Shown here piece after piece: positions 4,828 through 36,137 of a DNA stretch of 44,426 nt (position 1 is its first letter; every line of letters begins with the position of its first letter). A program made the translations under genes and the position numbers. Below the pieces are notes generated by a model. It was not told the origin of the DNA. It made no database searches and worked only from the letters and a program-made list of their open reading frames with translations. The DNA comes from a virus. The stretch covers positions 1 through 44,426 of the IMG/VR virus record IMGVR_UViG_3300044946_000077; one strand, written 5' to 3'.

Positions 4828-5001
4828 ATGCAGGAGTGCCTCATTTGCGGGGTCGTTCAAGGCGAAGAAGTTTGCGATCGCTGCTGGGAGAAGTTTTGGA
4901 CCAATCTCGCGGCGGCGATCGCAAGCGGAGAGGTTAAAGAGGAATGGCTGAAAACATGTCAAAGAAATACTCGCTCACAGAGGAGCACCGAGCTCAACTG
5001 A
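4828..5001 (+). CDS. 57-residue zinc-ribbon protein
   Basis: Starts at ATG 4828, five bases after the previous stop, and ends in TGA at 4999-5001. The first 20 residues hold CLIC and CDRC knuckles ten residues apart, a compact zinc ribbon, followed by an amphipathic helix rich in Trp and Ala. The last third overlaps the start of the DUF6745 gene out of frame. One of about a dozen minimal zinc-binding proteins in this window. Confidence 0.55.
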   Translation: MQECLICGVVQGEEVCDRCWEKFWTNLAAAIASGEVKEEWLKTCQRNTRSQRSTELN

Positions 5002-6230
5002 AACCTTGGGCTGAGAAGTGGATCCGGAACGCCATGAGCACATCGGCGATGACGGAGGAGGATCGAACGATTTGCGTCGGTGCAGTGAAGCGACTGTACC
5101 GAGCGGCGAATCTCGAACCTCCTCCGGACCGGCGAATCATTTTCGTTCCCTCGCCGTTTGTGATGCGTTTCGCATCAGGGTTTGCGGCTTGGATTTTGTA
5201 TTTGAGAAAAAATAAAAAGCCTCCCACGCGCGACGCCACGGACGCCGCCACGTACGCCGCCACGCGCGACGCCACGGACGCCGCCACGCGCGCCGCCACG
5301 CGCGACGCCACGCGCGACGCCACGTACGACGCCACGCGCGACGCCACGGACGCCGCCACGTACGCCGCCACGCGCGACGCCACGGACGCCGCCACGGACG
5401 CCGCCACGGACGCCGCCACGCGCGACGCCACGCGCGACGCCACGCGCGACGCCACGGACGCCGCCACGCGCGACGCCACGTACGCCGCCACGCGCGACGC
5501 CACGGACGACGAAGACAACTGGTTTGTCTTGAACGGAGATCTCGTTCGTCTCGCCGAAGAGCTCGGCGTCGGCCGAGCTGGTCTGCAATGTGCTTACAAC
5601 GCCTATGCGTTTTGGCAGGGCGGAAATCAGTGGTCCGGCTGGGATGCCTTCCTATCTTTCTTCCGCCACGTCGTCAGACTCGACATCAACTACGCGGCGT
5701 ATGAGTCCTGGGAAACGTTGTCGCTTCATTCCGGTCCGCGCGCAGTGCATGCGGAATTCTGCATCATCAGCGATCGCCCGGAAGTTCTCCTGGTCGACGA
5801 GCAAAACCGCCCGCACTGCACAACCGGGCCGTTTTGCCGATGGCGCGACGGTAGCGAGCTCTATTCGGTTCACGGCACACGTGTTCCCGCGAAACTGATT
5901 CGGCATCCGGAGAAAATCACAGCGAAAGAAATCCTTGCCGAAGAAAACGCCGAAATCCGCCGCGTCATGGTTGAGCTCGTCGGTATGGAACGCTTCCTTA
6001 ACGAAGCGGGCGCGAGCTGTATCCACAAACATGAAATGGGCGATCTGTTCTCGATTGACCTACCCGGCGATCCGGACCAGGTGCTGCGTTCCGTTCGCGT
6101 GAAAGATCCTTCGACTGGTCGGATTTATTTCCTTCGTGTACCGCCAACGATTGATCGTGCCGATGACGCGGTTGCCTGGACTTTTGGTTTCGAGACGGCC
6201 AAACAGTACCGGCCGCTCGTGGAGACCTAA
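4956..6230 (+). CDS. DUF6745-type protein with internal tetrapeptide-repeat array
   Basis: A protein of about 424 residues in three parts. An N-terminal helical domain (to about nt 5228) ends in a Trp/Tyr-rich helix and KNKKPP. Then come 23 exact tetrapeptides of form [RDY][DA]AT (nt 5229-5504). The C-terminal ~240 residues match the DUF6745 pattern: NWFVLNGD, a WETLSLHSGPRAVHAEF segment, the PHCTTGPFCRW motif, a YSVHGTRVPAKLIRHPE motif, then EENAEIRRVMVELVG and a beta-rich tail. I start at ATG 4956, 12 bases after AAGAGGA; ATG 4944 is immediately at that site and less likely. Length fits DUF6745 proteins apart from the array. Function is unknown; the domain is seen in phages and bacteria. 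Confidence 0.75.
   Translation: MSKKYSLTEEHRAQLKPWAEKWIRNAMSTSAMTEEDRTICVGAVKRLYRAANLEPPPDRRIIFVPSPFVMRFASGFAAWILYLRKNKKPPTRDATDAATYAATRDATDAATRAATRDATRDATYDATRDATDAATYAATRDATDAATDAATDAATRDATRDATRDATDAATRDATYAATRDATDDEDNWFVLNGDLVRLAEELGVGRAGLQCAYNAYAFWQGGNQWSGWDAFLSFFRHVVRLDINYAAYESWETLSLHSGPRAVHAEFCIISDRPEVLLVDEQNRPHCTTGPFCRWRDGSELYSVHGTRVPAKLIRHPEKITAKEILAEENAEIRRVMVELVGMERFLNEAGASCIHKHEMGDLFSIDLPGDPDQVLRSVRVKDPSTGRIYFLRVPPTIDRADDAVAWTFGFETAKQYRPLVET
5229..5504 (+). repeat. 12-bp tandem repeat array, 23 units, coding
   Basis: Twenty-three uninterrupted 12-base units encode RDAT (11), DAAT (7), YAAT (3), RAAT (1) and YDAT (1). Codon use is invariant: Arg always CGC, Asp GAC, Tyr TAC, Ala GCC and Thr ACG. 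Every difference between units therefore changes an amino acid, and no silent change exists. This points to recent expansion or homogenisation from a few unit types. The 12-base period keeps several frames open on both strands; those frames are by-products. Confidence 0.95.
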
Positions 6231-9031: not shown

Positions 9032-9635
9032 CGGCAAATATTGCCGAGATTGCCAAACACTTGGCCGGCAAACAGCGGCTCATCGGCTTATCGGCAGAAC
9101 CTTAGTCTGCGACGCGCACTTTCGCCAACGAATGGGGTTGCCGCAACTGACGCCATTGATTCGCAGGCCGACCTGCGTCGGCTGCCAGCAACAAGGCAAG
9201 CATGTGCCGGCGACGAAGACGGTCAATGGAATGAATATGTGCGACGAGCACGCCGGCGCGGCGGCGATCGATGAGCCGGAAGATCTTTTAGGGCCAGAAG
9301 TTGAGACAGAGAAAAAGGAGACTCGGAAAATGGCGCGAAAGAAAGACATCGACTGGAACGAAGTGCAAAGAAAGCGAAACGAGGGATCGACAACCACAGA
9401 GCTTGCGGATGAGTTTGGCTGCAGCGTTGCGACTGTCTGCAACCACACGAAAAAGGCGCCTAGCGGTCGGCTGGAAGCTATTGCCGATCGGGCAAAGAGG
9501 CCGAAAGGAAACAATGGCGCCGGGTACCGAAAGACTGCCGGCACGACGACGCTGGCAGACACGATCGCCGAGCTAACCACCAAGCGCGACAAGCTCAATG
9601 TCGCTATCGAGACGCTCCAAGGCCTCGACGCATGA
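8868..9635 (+). CDS. Multi-zinc-knuckle protein fused in frame to HTH domain
   Basis: 255 residues from TTG 8868 with AAGAGGACC about nine bases upstream. Zinc knuckles: CMKC and CLAC (residues 9-37), CRDC...CDAHF (59-85) and CVGC...CDEH (103-128), i.e. three ribbon-like units. After an acidic linker (DEPEDLLGPEVETEKKE), an HTH domain follows (WNEVQRKRNEGSTTTELADEFGCSVATVCNH), then a basic stretch and a C-terminal helix. The HTH part has its own ATG (9330) and ribosome site. ATG 9018 is another possible start. Probably one or two regulators of host or phage transcription. Confidence 0.6.
   Translation: MSGCYRYRCMKCGENIVESNWKWARPPAKFEAMCLACAKAVIAEYIGDKPMVEHDGKYCRDCQTLGRQTAAHRLIGRTLVCDAHFRQRMGLPQLTPLIRRPTCVGCQQQGKHVPATKTVNGMNMCDEHAGAAAIDEPEDLLGPEVETEKKETRKMARKKDIDWNEVQRKRNEGSTTTELADEFGCSVATVCNHTKKAPSGRLEAIADRAKRPKGNNGAGYRKTAGTTTLADTIAELTTKRDKLNVAIETLQGLDA
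9330..9635 (+). CDS. Nested in-frame HTH protein
   Basis: ATG 9330 is preceded by AAAAAGGAGAC at 9 bases spacing, a much stronger site than that of the long frame. It would yield a free 101-residue protein: an HTH (residues about 5-38, TTELADEFGCSVATVCNH recognition unit), a Gly/Lys-rich linker and a helical tail (TTLADTIAELTTKRDKLNVAIETL) suited to dimerisation. The HTH-plus-helix layout is typical of stand-alone phage DNA-binding proteins. Confidence 0.5.
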   Translation: MARKKDIDWNEVQRKRNEGSTTTELADEFGCSVATVCNHTKKAPSGRLEAIADRAKRPKGNNGAGYRKTAGTTTLADTIAELTTKRDKLNVAIETLQGLDA

Positions 9636-9814
9636 GCTACGAACCTGCCTATGCGGAGATGCTCCAGCAGAATGAGCAGCTCCGCCAAGCCCTCAAGGAA
9701 GCGATCGCCGCGGTCAAGCTATTCCACGGCCCGGGTTGGGAACTCTATCGCGATCATTCGCCCGAAATGAAGCGGTGGAAGGCGTTGCTTCCGCCACAGG
9801 ACAGAGATGTCTGA
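9632..9814 (+). CDS. 60-residue helical protein
   Basis: ATG overlaps the previous stop (ATGA). The first 30 residues form an amphipathic/coiled-coil helix (EMLQQNEQLRQALKEAIAAVKLF), followed by GPGWELYRDHSPEMKRW. Small, acidic-basic mixed, no known family. The coupled position in the operon supports it as a gene. Confidence 0.55.
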   Translation: MSYEPAYAEMLQQNEQLRQALKEAIAAVKLFHGPGWELYRDHSPEMKRWKALLPPQDRDV

Positions 9815-10094
9815 GCACTACACCAAAAACACGGAAGAAGTTACGGCCTACTGCAGGCGATGCCAGCGAAACACTCAGCATCGCGTCTTTGGCGGCCGCC
9901 TCGGGCCGTGTATCGACCCAGAGCATGGCAGCAAACGGCCTCAGCCGGGCGATCGGCCATACCGCGTGATCTACCTGCAGAGCGGCGAGAAGAAACATCG
10001 CGACTTCGGCGACTTCAATGAAGCGCTGAATTTCTTCGCGCGGTTTGGGCCGCAGCTGGCGACATTGTGGCAAGCGAAGGAGCAGCTTCGATGA
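9807..10094 (+). CDS. Zinc-binding small phage protein
   Basis: 95 residues, ATG eight bases inside the preceding gene. CRRC (16-19) with H26 and C35/H40 could bind zinc. The C-terminal part (YRVIYLQSGEKKHRDFGDFNEALNFFARF) is an alpha/beta unit. Overlaps the next gene by ATGA. Likely another member of the set of small zinc proteins ahead of the replication genes; function unknown. Confidence 0.55.
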   Translation: MSEHYTKNTEEVTAYCRRCQRNTQHRVFGGRLGPCIDPEHGSKRPQPGDRPYRVIYLQSGEKKHRDFGDFNEALNFFARFGPQLATLWQAKEQLR

Positions 10095-10303
10095 TCTTGA
10101 TTGTCAGACTGATTCCAAACCAGCGTTGCACTGGCTGCGGCGGTCACGGCTACTGCGAGGCGAAGACCCTGCTGTGTCTTTTCTGTTTTGGCCTCAAAGT
10201 CAGCGTTGAATCGCGCAAGCGAAAACTTGTTTCGACGATGGCGCAGCGGTTCGCGTTTTTGAAGGACAAAATTCGGGCCCAGCTGAGGGAGTTCGCAAGT
10301 TGA
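10091..10303 (+). CDS. 70-residue zinc-ribbon protein
   Basis: ATG 10091 overlaps the previous TGA. CTGCGGHGYC and CLFC (residues 13-33) form a DnaJ-like zinc knuckle pattern (CxxCxGxG), followed by a basic helix (ESRKRKLVSTMAQRFAFLKDKIRAQL). It immediately precedes and overlaps the replication initiator by 4 bases. May act in replication or transcription control; not established. Confidence 0.6.
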   Translation: MILIVRLIPNQRCTGCGGHGYCEAKTLLCLFCFGLKVSVESRKRKLVSTMAQRFAFLKDKIRAQLREFAS

Positions 10304-11172
10304 ACATAGGCCTGCATGGGGGCATCACCGAAGAGAAGCATTACAGGGCGATGGGGGACGCAGTCTGGCTCTATATGTGGCTTGTGAAACGGCAAACTCG
10401 AGCGAACGGCCTGGTCTTAGGTGGGTCGCCAATCACCTACCAGAGGGTCAGCATTGAGACTCACTATTCCCCGCGGCGCGTTCGCCGATGGATGCGAATA
10501 CTGGCTGCGGCAGGCTACATTTCCGTCGCTTACCTGAACTACAAACAGATGCGAATCACGATCCTGAAAGCGAAAAAATTCGGCTCAAAGCAGCTTGTTT
10601 TGCCGATGGGAGAATCGTCCATAAATGGACCATTGCCACAAAGTGGCCATCGTCCAAATATGGACGATGGCTCCAAAACACACCATAGGCCAAAAATGGA
10701 CGATGGCACCCCCCCAAAGACGACCAAAAGTGGACGATATGACCCCCCTAACACGACCAAAAATGGACGATTCAAGCAGAGTATTAAGAACCTGAGAAGT
10801 AATGAAACACCTGAAGACCCTATCTCTCCGCCAAACGTCATGCGCACGCTCGGGGTCCTGCCTGCTCTCTGGCATCAGTACCGAAGAGTGAGAGAGACAA
10901 TCCGCCGGCCAATCGCGCCAGGCGCCGAAGACCTGATCTTCCAAGAGTTGCTCGAGTTCCAGTCGTCAGGCCAGGACCCAAGCGAAATTCTGAAGCAGGC
11001 GATCCGCACGTCATCGTGGAAGTTGTATCCAGTCAGAAACGGGGAGCAAGGCCATGAATCTTTCGCAGAAAAGAGAAGCCGGAAAACAGCGCACGCAATC
11101 TCGGGAGTTTTGGACCGTCTTGAAAAAGCATCTAGCCATCCTCAGCGAGCACTACCGCCAGCCGATAAGTGA
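10300..11172 (+). CDS. Replication initiator (winged-helix, O/DnaD-like) containing the probable origin
   Basis: 290 residues. The start TTG is coupled to the previous gene. Residues 1-90 form a winged-helix replication-initiator domain: GDAVWLYMWLVKRQ, a turn, then ITYQRVSIETHYSPRRVRRWMRILAAAGYI. The middle (about 100-170) is low-complexity Pro/Lys/Asp-rich and corresponds to DNA packed with iterons (10614-10771). The C-terminal part (about 185-260, LGVLPALWHQYRRV..., EDLIFQELLEF) is helical and could contact the helicase loader encoded next. This plan parallels lambda O, whose gene contains the origin. Assignment to initiator is by architecture and context (loader and RusA downstream), not by a diagnostic motif. 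Confidence 0.7.
   Translation: MNIGLHGGITEEKHYRAMGDAVWLYMWLVKRQTRANGLVLGGSPITYQRVSIETHYSPRRVRRWMRILAAAGYISVAYLNYKQMRITILKAKKFGSKQLVLPMGESSINGPLPQSGHRPNMDDGSKTHHRPKMDDGTPPKTTKSGRYDPPNTTKNGRFKQSIKNLRSNETPEDPISPPNVMRTLGVLPALWHQYRRVRETIRRPIAPGAEDLIFQELLEFQSSGQDPSEILKQAIRTSSWKLYPVRNGEQGHESFAEKRSRKTAHAISGVLDRLEKASSHPQRALPPADK
10614..10771. repeat. Iteron cluster, candidate replication origin
   Basis: The octamer TGGACGAT occurs directly at 10661-10668, 10697-10704, 10731-10738 and 10764-10771, spaced 36, 34 and 33 bases. The last three copies have the longer consensus CCAAAA(A/G)TGGACGAT. Reverse copies stand at 10614-10621 and 10649-10656. Arms CCATCGTCCA (10647-10656) and TGGACGATGG (10661-10670) make a perfect 10-bp dyad with a 4-base loop. 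A weaker dyad pairs 10614-10621 with TGGACCAT at 10626-10633. The cluster lies within the initiator gene, exactly as in lambda-type origins. The copies are read in two different frames (MDDG versus SGRY/NGRF), so selection is on DNA. Confidence 0.75.
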
Positions 11173-11527
11173 GCTGTCCGTGATCGCCTACGCTGAAGAC
11201 CTATCAGGCCTCACGCCGGACCAACTCGACGCGGCGTGCCAGCGCGCGCGGCAGATCTCCGAGTTCATGCCAGTATCGGCAGCGATCCTGCAAGCGCACC
11301 GGGAGCTACAGGCGAGTCATCGCCAGGAATATCTTGGAGTGCCTTTGCTGGAGTATCCGCCAGTGACACAAGAAGAGCGCGATGCAGCTCTCGAGTATTC
11401 CGAGAAATTGAAAACACTTCTTGGCGCGCCAGAACCAAAGCCAGAGAAGAAAAAGCTGACCGCGCGGCCGTCGCTTCTCTCCATCGACGAACAGAAACGC
11501 ATCCTGAAAGCGAAGGGCTGGCTATGA
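11054..11527 (+). CDS. Probable helicase loader / primosome-type replication protein
   Basis: 157 residues, mostly helical. ATG 11054 with GGGGAGCAAGG upstream lies 119 bases inside the initiator gene. The pattern FWTVLKKHLAILSEHYRQPISELSVIAYAEDLSGLTPDQLDAACQRA is followed by FMPVSAAIL. It resembles the N-terminal domain of phage helicase-loader or replisome organiser proteins that act after an initiator (lambda P or SPP1 gp39-type role). The C-terminal basic stretch (PKPEKKKLTARP) precedes a short helix. No helicase is encoded, so recruitment of host DnaB is implied. Functional call rests mostly on gene order. Confidence 0.5.
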   Translation: MNLSQKREAGKQRTQSREFWTVLKKHLAILSEHYRQPISELSVIAYAEDLSGLTPDQLDAACQRARQISEFMPVSAAILQAHRELQASHRQEYLGVPLLEYPPVTQEERDAALEYSEKLKTLLGAPEPKPEKKKLTARPSLLSIDEQKRILKAKGWL

Positions 11528-12075
11528 TTAAATTCACCGTTTACGGCAAACCGCAACCACAAGGCTCGACGAAAGCTTTCGTGTACAATGCCTACAATCA
11601 TCGAACGAACCAGATGCAAGCGCGCGCGGCTATCACGTCCGACAATGCGACGCTGAAGCCCTGGCGGCAGCAAGTCAGTCAGACCGCACTCGAAGCCGCC
11701 AAAGGCGAAATCATCCCGCGCGGCGTTCCAGTCTCGATCTGGCTGATGTTTTACTTCGATCCGCCGAAGAGTCTTCCGAAAAGCGCCAGCAGACTTAAAA
11801 CCACAAAACCCGATATCGACAAGCTCATTCGCAGCGTACTCGACGCTTTGACCGGAACGGTCTTCGAGGACGACTCGCAGGTTGCGGTTTGTCGAATGCA
11901 AAAATGTTTCGCGCAGCCTGAACGGCTCGAAGTGTTCGTCGGCGCGATTCACGATCAGCCGCGAGCGCAAGTACCGGAAGAAAAAGATTTGCAGCGGCCG
12001 CTGGATTTTGCGTTCGCGGCACCTGTGGAAGCAGTGGAAGGTGCAGTGGAAGTTGCAGGAAAGGCGGCATCGTGA
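11524..12075 (+). CDS. rusA: RusA-like Holliday junction resolvase
   Basis: 183 residues, ATG overlapping the previous stop. The RusA hallmarks are clear: KPQPQGSTKAFV near the start, the catalytic KPDIDKLIRSVLDAL (D97, D99) and the DD pair in VFEDDSQV (D116, D117). The last ~40 residues (EEKDLQRPLDFAF...) extend beyond the usual ~120-130-residue RusA core and look like a tail. It should cleave Holliday junctions and branched replication intermediates before packaging. It sits directly after the initiator/loader pair. Confidence 0.9.
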   Translation: MIKFTVYGKPQPQGSTKAFVYNAYNHRTNQMQARAAITSDNATLKPWRQQVSQTALEAAKGEIIPRGVPVSIWLMFYFDPPKSLPKSASRLKTTKPDIDKLIRSVLDALTGTVFEDDSQVAVCRMQKCFAQPERLEVFVGAIHDQPRAQVPEEKDLQRPLDFAFAAPVEAVEGAVEVAGKAAS

Positions 12076-12404
12076 GCGCCGGCAAAGTGATCCTGGCTTT
12101 ACAGATTTCCGGGTTCGTCGCGGCGATAGTTGCGCTCGCCGTGCACGCGCCGCATTTGATTTTCGTTCTATCGTTCGCTGTTCACCTGGCGGGCGACATC
12201 CTGTTTCTCAGAGAGGAAGGACCACCACAAATGCCATTCAACATCTCGAACTATGTCAAACTGGCTCCTTGGCTGCAGTTTGTTGGCCTGGCGCTTGCGA
12301 TCGGTGGATTGCTGGCACTCACCCACTGGTTTGGAAAGCCGCTGGCCTATGTCGGCATCTTCGTGAGCTTTGCCGGCTTCATCTACAAAAAGATTTATCC
12401 ATGA
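12072..12404 (+). CDS. Multi-span membrane protein
   Basis: 110 residues, GTG start overlapping the RusA stop. Four hydrophobic segments (about 5-22, 27-43, 63-84, 88-105) form two pairs separated by a loop, LREEGPPQMPFN. In that loop AGAGGAAGGA followed ten bases later by an in-frame ATG (12231) could start a two-span short form, reminiscent of dual-start holins. Position in the early/middle region instead of next to the endolysin argues against it being the main holin. Function unknown. Confidence 0.6.
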   Translation: MSAGKVILALQISGFVAAIVALAVHAPHLIFVLSFAVHLAGDILFLREEGPPQMPFNISNYVKLAPWLQFVGLALAIGGLLALTHWFGKPLAYVGIFVSFAGFIYKKIYP

Positions 12405-12583
12405 GTCCATCAAAACGCCTAGCCGAAGAGACGAAAATCGAGCCACTCTTCTACTGCACAGAGCGCGTCCGCGAGTATGTCTGCGAGCAGTGCGAAACAG
12501 TGTTTCTGTTTTTGGCAACATCGGACTCATCGAGGCCTCCAGCGTTTTGCCCAAACTGCGGACGAAGGAACGCAACGGCATAG
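12401..12583 (+). CDS. 60-residue zinc-ribbon protein
   Basis: ATGA overlap with the preceding gene. CEQC (residues 28-31) and CPNCG (49-53) with FLFLA and PAFCP between form a classic zinc ribbon. The N-terminal half is charged. Typical of small phage nucleic-acid or RNA-polymerase-binding proteins, but no target can be named. Confidence 0.6.
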   Translation: MSPSKRLAEETKIEPLFYCTERVREYVCEQCETVFLFLATSDSSRPPAFCPNCGRRNATA

Positions 12584-14617: not shown

Positions 14618-16022
14618 CCTTGCTTCTTTTGCGCGTGGCGCATGGCCTGTTCTCGAGCCTGGCACAGAGCTGAAATGGAACTGGCACCTCGACCTCATCG
14701 CCGAATACTTGACGCTAGTGCAGCAGCGCGTGATTCGTCGGCTCATCATCAACGTTCCGCCGCAAACAATGAAATCGCGCTTCGTGAACGTGTTCTATCC
14801 CACCTGGTCTTGGAGTCAGATTCCGACGCGGCGCTTTCTGTCGAGCTCGTATTCTGGCGATCTTTCCGAAGGGTTCAACGTGGAACGGTCGAAGCTCGTG
14901 CGGTCCGAATGGTTCCAGCAGATGTTTCCGGCGAAGGTCTCACTGAGCCAGGACACGCAAGCGCAGATCGAGAACGAAGTCGGTGGCCGTATGACAGCGA
15001 CGTCGACTGGAGGAACAGCGACCGGGAAGGGCGCGCACGACGTAATCATCGACGATCCGCTCAATCCCAAACTCGCAGCTTCCGAAGTGGAGCTTGCAGC
15101 GTCGAACAATTTTTTCGACGACACACTCCGCACACGCCTTTCCGACCAGGCGACAGGCGTGTTCGTGATTGTGATGCAGCGCCTCGACTACCAGGACTTG
15201 ACCGGCCACGTGCTGGCAAAGAATCCCGGCGAGTGGACGCACATCAAGATTCCCATGGTTGCCGAAGAGGAAGAGCGCTGGACTTTCCCGATCAGCGGAC
15301 GCGTCGTCGTGCGGCAGCCTGGCGACTTGCTTTGGCAGGACAGATTTCCGGAGTCAGTCGTCGCGAGTCTGAAGACGGACATGGGCACGCGATCGTACGA
15401 AGGCCAGTACCAGCAACGCCCATCACCGAAGGGCGGAAACATCATCAAGGAAAACTGGATCAAGTACTGGCGCGTGATGCCGCAGAGCTTCGACCAGGTG
15501 ATTCAGTCGTGGGATATGTCGTTCGCTGACACAAAAACTTCTAGCTTTGTCGTTGGCCAGGTCTGGGGCCGGCTCGGCGCACGCAAGCTTTTGCTGGCCG
15601 AAGTGCACAAACGCATGGACTTCGTCGAAACCGTTCGCGAAGTCAGGCAGATGAGCGGCAACTGGCCACAAGCTCACGCAAAGCTTGTCGAGAACAAAGC
15701 GAATGGGCCGGCGGTGATCTCGGCGCTGAAGCTCGAAGTTGACGGATTGATTGCAGTCGAGCCGGACGGCGACAAAGCCGCGCGCATGTATGCAGTGAGT
15801 CCGGACTACGAAGCCGGGAACGTCGAGGTTCCCGATCCGACAATGCCTGGCTACGGCTGGGTCGAAGAGCACGTCGCTGAAATCATCCGCTTTCCTGGAA
15901 AGCCAAACGACCGCGGCGATGCGGTAAGCCAGGCGTTGAAGCGGCTGCGATCGTTCCCGTCAGGAATTGCGAGCTTCTACCAGGAAATCGCAGAACCGAA
16001 AGTGCAAGGAGCTGCAGCGTGA
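14580..16022 (+). CDS. terL: Terminase large subunit
   Basis: 480 residues if started at ATG 14580, the only normal start near the family's N-terminus. The preceding in-frame codons (LPPEQQTEIHRLLE) look homologous to terminase starts, so a CTG at 14520 or 14538 may be the real one. ATPase: atypical Walker A NVPPQTMKS (58-66), Walker B with VIIDDP. Nuclease: SWDMSFADTKTSSFVVGQVWG with the first catalytic Asp, the VENKANGPAVI segment and the terminal DRGDAVSQAL Asp, all of the Terminase_6/gp17 type. It drives DNA into the prohead and cuts it. The frame is open 500 bases upstream, but that stretch is an out-of-frame read of DUF5681. Confidence 0.92.
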   Translation: MESLLKSQAELRDLASFARGAWPVLEPGTELKWNWHLDLIAEYLTLVQQRVIRRLIINVPPQTMKSRFVNVFYPTWSWSQIPTRRFLSSSYSGDLSEGFNVERSKLVRSEWFQQMFPAKVSLSQDTQAQIENEVGGRMTATSTGGTATGKGAHDVIIDDPLNPKLAASEVELAASNNFFDDTLRTRLSDQATGVFVIVMQRLDYQDLTGHVLAKNPGEWTHIKIPMVAEEEERWTFPISGRVVVRQPGDLLWQDRFPESVVASLKTDMGTRSYEGQYQQRPSPKGGNIIKENWIKYWRVMPQSFDQVIQSWDMSFADTKTSSFVVGQVWGRLGARKLLLAEVHKRMDFVETVREVRQMSGNWPQAHAKLVENKANGPAVISALKLEVDGLIAVEPDGDKAARMYAVSPDYEAGNVEVPDPTMPGYGWVEEHVAEIIRFPGKPNDRGDAVSQALKRLRSFPSGIASFYQEIAEPKVQGAAA

Positions 16023-16438
16023 TTCGCAAATTATTTTTCGTCACAGCGATCTGCTTGTGGGCCAGCGCCGCGAATGGCCAGCCATGGTATCGCGACTGGA
16101 AAGTCTGGACCGTCATCGGCATTTCGTTGGGATCTTCGATCGCAGCGACACACAACGCGCACGATTGCCGCCTTGTGAACGGCATCGCGCCATGCGATGG
16201 CGGCTATGGCGAGTTCCGAGCTCGCGAGATCCTTCGATTTGGCGGATCCGCCGGCATTGTCGGGGTCGGACTGTGGGGGCGCCATCAAGGCTTCAAAGAG
16301 TGGGCGATTCCCGCGCTCGGCTTTGCTGGCTATAACGCGAGCGTCGCGTTCAGGCAGTCGCGCATCGGCTGTCCGGCCGAGGAGCATTTTCTTTACGGCA
16401 CGAAGTTTACTTGCGTCGCGAATCAGCCTTCCTGGTAG
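16019..16438 (+). CDS. Exported protein of unknown function
   Basis: 139 residues, GTG start overlapping the terminase stop. Residues 1-20 form a Sec signal (RKLFFVTAICLWASAANG) with a likely cleavage after ANG. The mature part has a hydrophobic Gly-rich hairpin (WTVIGISLGSSIAATHNAHDC), four cysteines that could form disulphides, and a second Gly-rich stretch (GGSAGIVGVGLWG), so it is periplasmic or membrane associated. Encoding an exported protein between terminase and virion genes is unusual and may reflect a moron. Confidence 0.65.
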   Translation: MIRKLFFVTAICLWASAANGQPWYRDWKVWTVIGISLGSSIAATHNAHDCRLVNGIAPCDGGYGEFRAREILRFGGSAGIVGVGLWGRHQGFKEWAIPALGFAGYNASVAFRQSRIGCPAEEHFLYGTKFTCVANQPSW

Positions 16439-16440
16439 CG

Positions 16441-16626
16441 ATGGCTCTCGTTCGATTCACGCGCGTTCTTCCTGACAAAAAAGAAACCGAAGTCAGCATC
16501 AATCCCGACTGGGTGCAGTGGGCTCAGTCCGATACAACGCAAACCGTGCTGCTGAAAATGGGCGACGGGATGGACGTGATCGTCAAAGGAAAACTCGAAG
16601 ACATCGAAAAAATGCTCGATGTCTAG
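16441..16626 (+). CDS. 61-residue unknown protein
   Basis: ATG 16441 begins three bases after the previous stop. A compact beta-rich protein (VRFTRVL ... EVSINPDWVQWAQ ... TVLLKMGDGMDVIVKG) ending in a helix. The pattern of strand, turn, strand with DWV resembles small phage proteins that bind or cap virion parts, but I cannot name a family. Confidence 0.55.
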   Translation: MALVRFTRVLPDKKETEVSINPDWVQWAQSDTTQTVLLKMGDGMDVIVKGKLEDIEKMLDV

Positions 16627-16640
16627 AGGCTGGAGAACAA

Positions 16641-16931
16641 ATGGCGTTAATCCTCACCGCTAAACAGATCATCGATCGAGGCCATGAAGGCAAGTGGCTG
16701 AAATTGTCCGAGGACGAACAGAACGCAATCATCGAATCCATCGCTGGCGAGAACCTGCGCCGCAATGCGCACTTCAACAAAATGGACGGTGCTTCCATTG
16801 GCGACAATCTTCGCCACTACCAAGACCGTGGGTACATCGTCGTGCACGGTGGGGGTGGCAAGGAAGCGGAAAAGCATCCGCTCGATCTTCCCCAACCGAA
16901 TCCGGCGCAATCCGGTGCAGAACTTCCCTGA
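16641..16931 (+). CDS. 96-residue unknown protein
   Basis: ATG 16641 with AGGCTGGAG upstream. N-terminal helices (LTAKQIIDRGHEGKWLKLSEDEQNAIIES), a central part with HYQDRGYIVVHGGGG, and a proline-rich end. No motif recognised. It is followed by a 31-base gap with AAGGAG, the ribosome site of the next gene. Confidence 0.55.
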   Translation: MALILTAKQIIDRGHEGKWLKLSEDEQNAIIESIAGENLRRNAHFNKMDGASIGDNLRHYQDRGYIVVHGGGGKEAEKHPLDLPQPNPAQSGAELP

Positions 16932-16962
16932 AACAAAAATTCACTAAGGAGAAATAGAACTT

Positions 16963-17430
16963 ATGGCAAGGAGATTCGCAACACCCGGAACGCAGGGCAC
17001 GGTCAGCTCGTCTTTCAAGAGCGCGATCGTCATTGCGGGAACAGCGGCTACGAGGCCGAAATTCTACAGCTTTATTCTTTCGACGCTCGGCGCCGCGGGG
17101 GATGGCGTTCTCGAATGGATCCTGCAGCGCTTCACCGCTGCAGGCACGTCGACCGCGGCAACCCCGCGCAACATCGATGCGACCGATCCTGCGGCCGCAG
17201 TTGCCGTTGCCGGCGTAAACCACTCGGTCGAGCCGACCTATACCGCGAACAGCTCGCTGTTCGACATCGGCATCAACCAGCGCGCGACTTACACCTGGAA
17301 CGCCTGGACAGAAGGCGCGCAGCTGCTTGCTCCTGCAACCGCGGCCTCTGGAATCGGGATCGCCATGTTGTCGTCTGTTGCGCCGGCATATACCGGTGTG
17401 GCATCCGTTCACGTCTTCCACGAAGAATAA
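16963..17430 (+). CDS. Probable virion (decoration/accessory) protein
   Basis: 155 residues, ATG with AAGGAGAAA. Ala/Thr/Gly-rich beta pattern, no charged clusters. Segments DIGINQRATYTWNAWTEGAQLLAPATAASGIG and the start RRFATPGTQGTVSSSFKSAI resemble single-domain beta-sandwich virion proteins. Strong ribosome site and late position support high expression as a structural protein, perhaps capsid decoration. Not a firm family call. Confidence 0.55.
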   Translation: MARRFATPGTQGTVSSSFKSAIVIAGTAATRPKFYSFILSTLGAAGDGVLEWILQRFTAAGTSTAATPRNIDATDPAAAVAVAGVNHSVEPTYTANSSLFDIGINQRATYTWNAWTEGAQLLAPATAASGIGIAMLSSVAPAYTGVASVHVFHEE

Positions 17431-17438
17431 AAACCGCG

Positions 17439-17735
17439 TTGGATCGCTATTCGACAAAGACCGAGGGCGTCGTGGAAATCGCGACGCCCTTCGGTGGTTT
17501 CACCGCTCTCAAAACCTTCACGTGCGGACACTGTGGAGGCATCGGCGTTTCGCAACCCGAAGGGCTCGAGGGAAAAATCATCCTCAGCACGTACCAAGCG
17601 CCGGCGGTTTGTCATCGCTGCTGGACGCTTGTCTGTCCGCAGTGCCATGCAAAAGGGAACTGCGTGACAGTCGAACAGTTGCTCACCGAGATCGAGAACC
17701 ACGATCGCTTTCTGAAGTCCGCGGGACTGTCGTGA
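17439..17735 (+). CDS. Zinc-binding small late protein
   Basis: 98 residues from TTG 17439 (GTG 17472 also possible). CGHC (31-34), CHRC and CPQCHAKGNC give three knuckles after a short beta region, followed by a helix (TVEQLLTEIENHDRFLKSAG). This zinc-rich protein lies among virion genes, where similar proteins occur in other phages; no role known. Overlaps the next gene by GTGA. Confidence 0.6.
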   Translation: MDRYSTKTEGVVEIATPFGGFTALKTFTCGHCGGIGVSQPEGLEGKIILSTYQAPAVCHRCWTLVCPQCHAKGNCVTVEQLLTEIENHDRFLKSAGLS

Positions 17736-34150: not shown

Positions 34151-36137
34151 TGAACTAAACGTAAAAATAGTCGTCGACGCCTCTCAGCTCAGCGCTGGCA
34201 TGCAAGCGGCCGCCGGCGCGCTGGAATCGGCGTCGGTGAGGATGGCGCAGTCGCTAAAGGCTGCGGGCATGTCTTCCGCCGATGCCGCTTCGGCGATGAA
34301 GAACCTCGGCTTTTCGGCCGCCGAAACTTCCACGGCACTGCAAGGCGTAGGACTTGTTGCCGCACAAACAGCGACCCAGGTCGAAGGGACAACCGTTTCA
34401 CTGACCGGCATGGACCGCGCAATGGCGCTCTCTGCCGGCCGCATCGCCGGAATGGCCGCTGGCTCTGGAATGCTTGGGGGCGCACTTGGCCGCGTAGCAG
34501 CCGCCAGTTCCACGCTTGGCCCTATCCTAGCTGCAGCTTTCCCAATTGTGGCTGCCGTCGCTCTCGTCGACATCGCGTCAAAACTGCCGAATATTTTCCA
34601 CGAAATCATCGACGCTATTGCTGGTTGGGATGAGGCCAGCAAAAAATCCTATTCTGAGATCATCACTAGCAACACCAACCTTCTGCTCGAAAGCACCCGC
34701 CTCAAAATTCAGGTCGAAGCGCTCAACGAAATCGGAGCGAAGGGAACTGCGAAGTACGGCCTGGCGATCAAGGACAACGTTGACGCGCAAAAGGCCTGGG
34801 GCCAAACGTCGGCCGAGCTGCTTCGCATGCAGCAAAGCCTTAACAGGGAAATAGACAATCTTCGCATCGCGCCTGACACCGTCCCTGGCGCAGCGCCGCT
34901 CGCTCATTTCATCGCCGAGGCCGGCGACCACATGAAGCAGCTCAGGAAAGAGCTGGAAGAAGTCAACAAAGCGCTCGAAATTGCAACGCGGACAGAGCAA
35001 GAGTTAGCCCAGGTTGGCGCTCCGAAAGCGGCGGCTGAAGCCAAGGCCGCCGGGATCGACGAGCAGAAAAAAGCCCTGGAGAATCTCGCTAGGGAAACAG
35101 ACCGGCAAAGCAAAGAGGAGGAAGAAGCTGCGGTTAAACGCGGCAACGCCGAACGGCAAGCTGCGGAGGAAAAAGAGAGGCTTGACGAAGAAGTTGCTAC
35201 GCATTCGAGAGAAGTTGCGAACAAGGACCTGGAAGATTGGCGGCGTTCGCTAGTTCAGAAAACCTCCATCACCGAAGAAGAAGGAAGGAACGCGCTGGCC
35301 CAGATTCGCGCCAATGCCGAGTTGGCCGAAAAAGCGACGGCGGAGCATAAAGGCGCCGCGAGCCCTGAAATAAAAACTGAAGCCTTTGAAGCTTACAGGG
35401 AGGAAATCGCGATCATTCAGCAATTGGTCGCCGCCGAGGACGAACTTCAGGAAAAGCTTAAAGCAACCGGCGCGGCTCAGGACGACCCAAAGATCCTCGA
35501 GAGCATGCGACGCCAGGCTGCGGCGATGCAGCAAATGAACGTGGCCTGGGACCAGTACGCCGCGAAGGTTCAGCAAGTTATTCGCGCACAGCAACAGCAA
35601 GTCTCGCAAATGGTGAATACGATCGGCGCCGACTTCAGCCGCGGCATCGTCTCCTGGATGAACGGCCAGGAAACCTTCGGCCGCGCGATGCAAAAAGTGT
35701 GGACGCAGTTCGCCGATACGGTTGTGAGCTCGCTTCTCAAGGCCGGCTTTCAGATGGTTGCGAACATCGCGCTACAGAAGTCTTTGACCGACAGCACGAA
35801 GGTTAGCGACGCCGAAGCTGCAGCTCGCCACACCTGGACGGCGGTTTCTGCAATTCCGATCATCGGCCCTTTTCTCGCGCCGGAAGCGGCAGCCGCGGCG
35901 TTCGCCGGCGTGATGGCGTTCGAGAGTGGCGGCATGGTCCCTGGTTACGGCCCGACTCCCGCGATCGTCCATGGCGGCGAAATGATTTTGAACCAGGACC
36001 AACAGCGCGCCCTCGGAGGCGGTAGTCAGACTTTCAACTTCAATCACCACGGCGGCGGATCGGCCGAGCAGGTTCGCACCTCGAGCCGAGAATTTTTCAA
36101 GATGGCGAAGCGCGAGATGCGGAGGCTCAACCGATGA
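34143..36137 (+). CDS. Tape measure protein
   Basis: 664 residues, GTG start. N-terminal beta/helix start (ELNVKIVVDASQLSAGMQAAAGALESAS), a hydrophobic region (about 95-160: GRIAGMAAGSGMLGGALG, LGPILAAAFPIVAAVALVDI), then a long coiled coil rich in Ala/Glu/Lys/Gln (about 170-500), and a C-terminal membrane-active stretch (FLAPEAAAAAFAGVMAFESGGMVPGYGP). It sets tail length and helps DNA entry. Overlaps tail-tip gene by four bases. Confidence 0.9.
   Translation: MADELNVKIVVDASQLSAGMQAAAGALESASVRMAQSLKAAGMSSADAASAMKNLGFSAAETSTALQGVGLVAAQTATQVEGTTVSLTGMDRAMALSAGRIAGMAAGSGMLGGALGRVAAASSTLGPILAAAFPIVAAVALVDIASKLPNIFHEIIDAIAGWDEASKKSYSEIITSNTNLLLESTRLKIQVEALNEIGAKGTAKYGLAIKDNVDAQKAWGQTSAELLRMQQSLNREIDNLRIAPDTVPGAAPLAHFIAEAGDHMKQLRKELEEVNKALEIATRTEQELAQVGAPKAAAEAKAAGIDEQKKALENLARETDRQSKEEEEAAVKRGNAERQAAEEKERLDEEVATHSREVANKDLEDWRRSLVQKTSITEEEGRNALAQIRANAELAEKATAEHKGAASPEIKTEAFEAYREEIAIIQQLVAAEDELQEKLKATGAAQDDPKILESMRRQAAAMQQMNVAWDQYAAKVQQVIRAQQQQVSQMVNTIGADFSRGIVSWMNGQETFGRAMQKVWTQFADTVVSSLLKAGFQMVANIALQKSLTDSTKVSDAEAAARHTWTAVSAIPIIGPFLAPEAAAAAFAGVMAFESGGMVPGYGPTPAIVHGGEMILNQDQQRALGGGSQTFNFNHHGGGSAEQVRTSSREFFKMAKREMRRLNR

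Follow-up and report, generated by a model that had tools for sequence, protein, structure and literature searches.

The 158-bp array at positions 10614–10771 is best explained as the iteron part of a replication origin that would lie in the linker-coding region of its own initiator gene. We consider this sequence-based reading highly probable because the dyads exceed null models, related genes carry arrays of their own, synonymous sites within the iterons are frozen, an AT-rich stretch adjoins the array, and the iteron core covaries with the recognition helix of the protein. The analyzed stretch of DNA, hereafter the window, is the 44,426-base IMG/VR virus record IMGVR_UViG_3300044946_000077, which belongs to an uncultured virus of bacteria and, by its terminase, portal and tape measure genes, to a tailed phage. 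An origin within the initiator gene had been proposed from the letters of the window, and conservation among homologues, together with sites read in two or three frames, makes it the best-supported reading.

The initiator gene and its iteron array

The initiator gene (10300..11172, + strand) encodes a 290-residue protein from a TTG start that overlaps the upstream stop, and consists of a winged helix, a disordered linker and a helical C-terminal part. In profile searches, the protein matched phrog_7498, “DnaD-like helicase loader” (E 3.6e-12, residues 5–106), and phrog_678, “replication initiation O-like” (E 1.3e-11). No Pfam family was matched up to E 1, and the RepA_N domain (PF06970) was thus absent at that level. 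The winged-helix DNA-binding domain (10306..10590, + strand) was placed by a 13-relative alignment, structure and covariation with the iteron core; its recognition helix spans residues 58–70, with R63 as the predicted specificity residue. A structure predicted with 32 aligned homologues showed a confident winged helix to approximately residue 92 and C-terminal helices, separated by a disordered linker at about residues 104–177, for most of which pLDDT was <50. A Foldseek search with this model returned nothing at E ≤ 0.001. After re-ranking, plasmid initiator domains were at or near the top of the fold matches of the winged helix, and the best matches included 4pql, 4pt7, 5kbj and 4pta (Z 8.5–9.8), titled initiator or Rep–DNA structures; the top Z of 9.8 was reached at only 11% identity, and many other winged helices scored about 8. 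We take these four structures to be staphylococcal RepA_N proteins.

A RusA-like Holliday junction resolvase (11524..12075, + strand; PF05866 E 6.8e-16, phrog_140 E 4.3e-31) marks the surrounding region as a replication/recombination module. Upstream of it, a small gene (11054..11527, + strand) overlaps the end of the initiator gene, in a position that a helicase loader occupies in other phages. Its product had no family match in Pfam and phrog searches, and comparisons gave no support for a G39P-type loader.

The repeat unit of the array is a 20-bp imperfect palindrome, ATCGTCCA-N4-TGGACGAT, present in five copies: iteron 1 at 10614..10633 (dyad ATCGTCCATAAATGGACCAT, codon phase 2), iteron 2 at 10649..10668 (perfect dyad ATCGTCCAAATATGGACGAT, phase 1), iteron 3 at 10685..10704 (ATAGGCCAAAAATGGACGAT, phase 1), iteron 4 at 10719..10738 (GACGACCAAAAGTGGACGAT, phase 2) and iteron 5 at 10752..10771 (CACGACCAAAAATGGACGAT, phase 2). 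Dyad-to-dyad spacing is 35, 36, 34 and 33 bp. Dyads 1–5 match the consensus at 15, 16, 14, 13 and 13 of 16 positions, such that only dyad 2 is perfect, and the left arms are degenerate in copies 3–5. The original prediction had described four direct copies of TGGACGAT, inverted copies and a perfect 10-bp dyad. The direct copies are exact on the + strand at 10661, 10697, 10731 and 10764 (spacing 36, 34 and 33), and inverted copies are exact on the − strand at 10614 and 10649. The direct repeats are therefore real, but they belong to a larger unit, the 20-bp palindrome; similarly, the perfect dyad is present, but its arms are 11 bp long (10646–10656 and 10661–10671, 4 nt apart). One further exact copy of TGGACGAT occurs in the 44-kb window, at 35964.

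The array encodes residues 105–157 of the initiator, within the disordered linker, and iterons 1–5 are translated as SSINGPL, RPNMDDG, RPKMDDG, TTKSGRY and TTKNGRF. The same DNA motif is thus read in two frames, as MDDG in some copies and as SGRY or NGRF in others, just as had been proposed. When the linker protein was recoded synonymously (n = 1000), the maximum was 4 sites with a score of 53, compared with the observed 5 sites and a score of 71, and shuffling of codon order (n = 1000) gave a maximum of 2 sites. The five-dyad array is therefore far beyond chance. The one other part of the window with a score this high is a 12-bp tandem repeat at about 5.2–5.5 kb; at 5224–5511, within an ORF at 4944–6230, there is a 288-bp array of 12-bp/36-bp GC-rich tandem repeats (CCACGCGCGACG...).

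A candidate unwinding element (10769..10810) starts at the end of iteron 5 and represents the AT-richest 40 nt of the initiator gene (68% AT versus a window mean of 42%). In the window this AT-rich stretch is modest. An Rfam search gave no match, and a terminator-like match at 10698–10711 on the − strand was set aside, as 5 such matches were found in the region versus 4.0 expected by chance. A switch of cumulative GC skew near 10.7 kb, which had been anticipated for an origin at this site, was not seen; the skew peaks near 16.5–17 kb instead (within 16000–17500) and then falls to about 42 kb.

Arrays in homologous initiator genes

Protein searches with the initiator alone or its neighbor found no close relative of the window initiator, and a distant DNA search of phage records gave no match. 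An exact triple of TGGACGAT, used as a probe, had 17 matches in viral contigs, none of which was in an initiator homologue. Profile searches retrieved approximately 70 distantly related phrog_7498/XkdB-like genes with a homologous winged helix, mostly from Bacillales prophages, with Paenibacillus, Bacillus, Geobacillus, Cohnella and Lysinibacillus as the main sources. Among Pfam families, HTH_36 (PF13730) was matched by the largest number of these relatives (20 of 32). We analyzed 73 non-redundant homologous genes, including that of the window, and scored the dyad geometry first seen in the window, i.e., 8-bp arms and a 4-bp center (8-4-8), with the 206 nt that follow the winged helix counted as linker. 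Such dyads occurred at 9.64 per kb in the linker versus 0.14 per kb elsewhere in the same genes, and among 13 spacer lengths tested the 4-bp spacer gave the highest linker density. At least 3 sites were present in 66 of the 73 genes, in the same place in the gene as the window array. The half-site is lineage-specific (GTGCCA, ATCGGACA, ATCGGAAG, AAGTGCCA, ATCTATCA, AACCCTCA and others). Compared with phrog_7498/XkdB-like genes of phiOH2 and of Paenibacillus and Bacillus prophages, the window shares a winged helix (~30% identity) and an 8-4-8 linker array followed by AT-rich DNA, but these genes have other half-sites (GTGCCA, ATCGGACA, ATCGGAAG) and the AT-rich stretch of the window is weaker. 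In most homologues, as in the window, the AT maximum began where the last iteron ended, the placement expected for an unwinding element. In four homologues (L032, L034, L038 and L040), ACT/ATT trinucleotide runs were observed in the AT-rich stretch just after the last iteron (e.g., TTATTACTACTACTGAT in L034), and these are reminiscent of DnaA-trio elements.

The arrays were read in more than one frame in 51 of 66 genes (two frames in 44, three in 7). The frame is not wholly free, as the protein constrains it: phase 0, which would place W or C in the linker, was rare (7 of 278 sites across homologues). In related pairs, the share of four-fold-degenerate sites that differed was 9.1% for iteron arms, against 40.4% for the winged-helix part and 26.9% for the C-terminal part; these figures are effect sizes rather than tests because the pairs are non-independent. 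At the same time, amino-acid identity in homologue pairs was usually lower in iterons than in the winged helix. For example, in one ten-member cluster, amino-acid identity was 0.49 in iterons versus 0.79 in the winged helix, and four-fold differences were 4 of 167 versus 636 of 1656, respectively. These comparisons show, at the level of sequence, that the iteron DNA appears to be held fixed across relatives, with the encoded protein freer to change, in agreement with the proposal that DNA and not protein is conserved here. Relatives with the same linker protein and scrambled iterons had been named as the case against that proposal, and the homologues showed the opposite.

The spacings of 32 distinct arrays peaked at 22, 32–33, 42 and 54 bp. 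The best period was 10.5 bp (R 0.78; jittered nulls ≤0.47), and period 3 reached only 0.28. Iteron spacing thus appears to follow the DNA helix, and the codon frame would therefore change from site to site. The window spacings (33–36 bp) correspond to 3.1–3.4 helical turns, with no clear phasing.

Seven genes had fewer than 3 dyads, and six of them were XkdB-type (L024, L047, L049, L082, L088 and L121), with the winged helix kept and just one or two dyads. L024 has xre on one side and an ATP-binding gene on the other, the arrangement of PBSX, and we infer that the other five are of the PBSX type as well. PBSX-type elements package host DNA. Array loss in XkdB-type genes would be expected if the array is the origin.

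A different situation was observed in L126, the nearest phage by terminase (69% identity). Its initiator-like gene (L126:2229-3161) is non-homologous to the window initiator and has no 8-4-8 dyad array, as if the entire initiator/origin module had been exchanged between the two phages. In this gene, G-rich 18-bp direct repeats spaced 21 bp apart code for the linker (SLGLVGVGLGLVGVG). A small ORF directly upstream of the window initiator (10067–10303) has a relative at L126:957-1274 (E 1.7e-10), with the different initiator downstream in L126.

Recognition helix and alternative roles of the array

The recognition-helix residue preceding a conserved W/N, R63 in the window, was related to the iteron core. 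In the homologue set, R paired with core CA in all cases (51 of 51), and S, D or N paired with AG or AA (15 of 15); this pairing was the strongest among all pairs of domain columns and half-site positions. The covariation is strong and phylogenetically not decisive: the best tree has approximately four changes, and a single independent pair is well supported. This pairing suggests that the initiator itself probably binds the iterons.

An unlikely alternative is that the dyads form an operator array, bound by the winged-helix protein or by a repressor, that controls transcription instead of replication. A winged helix with palindromes is the usual repressor–operator pattern, and binding of the gene's own product would autoregulate. 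However, there is no promoter-like site in 9600–12500, the array lies 300 bp into the gene and is nearly always followed by AT-rich DNA, the family annotations concern replication, and plasmid initiator domains are at or near the top of the re-ranked fold matches. Less probable still is a centromere-like site for partition or incompatibility, or a satellite or host-factor binding array, that lies in the gene by chance: iteron arrays also act as centromeres and TubR-type winged-helix proteins were among the weak fold matches, but some 66 homologues have their array in the initiator gene, and the arrays covary with the initiator's own recognition helix. That linker peptide repeats are selected, with the DNA repeats as a by-product, is the least plausible and already largely contradicted. 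In its favor, repeat-bearing low-complexity linkers are common and the rarity of phase 0 indicates a constraint from the protein; against it, the same DNA occurs in two or three frames, the units are palindromic, synonymous recoding does not reproduce the array, and iteron synonymous sites are frozen while amino acids change.

In an origin of replication of this kind, the N-terminal winged helix would bind each dyad as a dimer, and several such dimers would assemble into a nucleoprotein complex able to melt the AT-rich stretch (about 10769–10810). The C-terminal part, perhaps with the 11054–11527 product, would recruit the replicative helicase, and replication would proceed in theta mode. For the linker peptide it would be enough to remain open and hydrophilic, which would leave the DNA free to take whichever frame the site spacing gives. 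A broader proposal, to which we give slightly less than even confidence, combines three parts: one recognition-helix residue would set the palindrome core, making origins predictable from the protein; ~10.5-bp phasing, and not codon frame, would set site positions and force the frame changes; and PBSX-type XkdB would have lost the array.

Comparison with known origins and implications

The lambda origin lies in the middle of gene O and consists of iterons and an AT-rich tract (PMC7466680). As in the window, the lambda iterons are located mid-gene between the DNA-binding and C-terminal parts, adjoin an AT-rich tract and take the form of imperfect palindromes containing a central A-tract; the half-site is different, and 18-bp units spaced 20–24 bp in lambda compare with 20-bp units spaced 33–36 bp in the window. 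The suggested parallel with lambda O and the difference in motif were thus both borne out. Yet the four lambda iterons lie in codon phases 0, 2, 2 and 1, so multi-frame reading is not new and not peculiar to the window phage. Profile comparison detected no direct homology between the window initiator and lambda O, and phrog_678 was matched by both. Among the Lysinibacillus homologues, L055 and L060 have the half-site AACCCTCA, close to the lambda iteron arm ATCCCTCA, and a match to phrog_277, the lambda O family, was obtained for the C-terminal part of L055.

Plasmid and other phage systems are similarly organized. In pSK41, the RepA_N initiator Rep has a DnaD-like N-terminal winged helix, and four Rep boxes lie centrally within rep, where the encoded linker is dispensable for replication (PMC5703833). 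The window gene is alike in its central, linker-encoding sites and N-terminal winged helix, but its protein has no RepA_N Pfam match. The initiator of plasmid pPR9 has an HTH_36-type (PF13730) N-terminal domain like that of a phage replication protein (PMC5703833). Also, SPP1 oriL lies within gene 38 and comprises direct repeats and an AT-rich unwinding element; gp38 binds there, and gp39 serves as helicase loader (PMC6316719); by this published description, it resembles the window in having repeats within the gene and an AT-rich element. The claim of a new initiator/iteron pair accordingly holds only for the motif, and the architecture is already known; the present additions are this motif, the evidence from across the family and the residue of the recognition helix. 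In the open literature, as far as our partial coverage extends, we found no publication on the origin of the phrog_7498/XkdB-like family.

These results amount to an origin predicted from sequence alone for an uncultured phage and about 65 relatives. The array would be a natural case of one DNA with two roles, in which the demand for binding sites fixes the DNA and the protein takes the resulting frame. Besides, the covariation between recognition helix and half-site may offer a route to how phage initiators and their origins shift specificity together.
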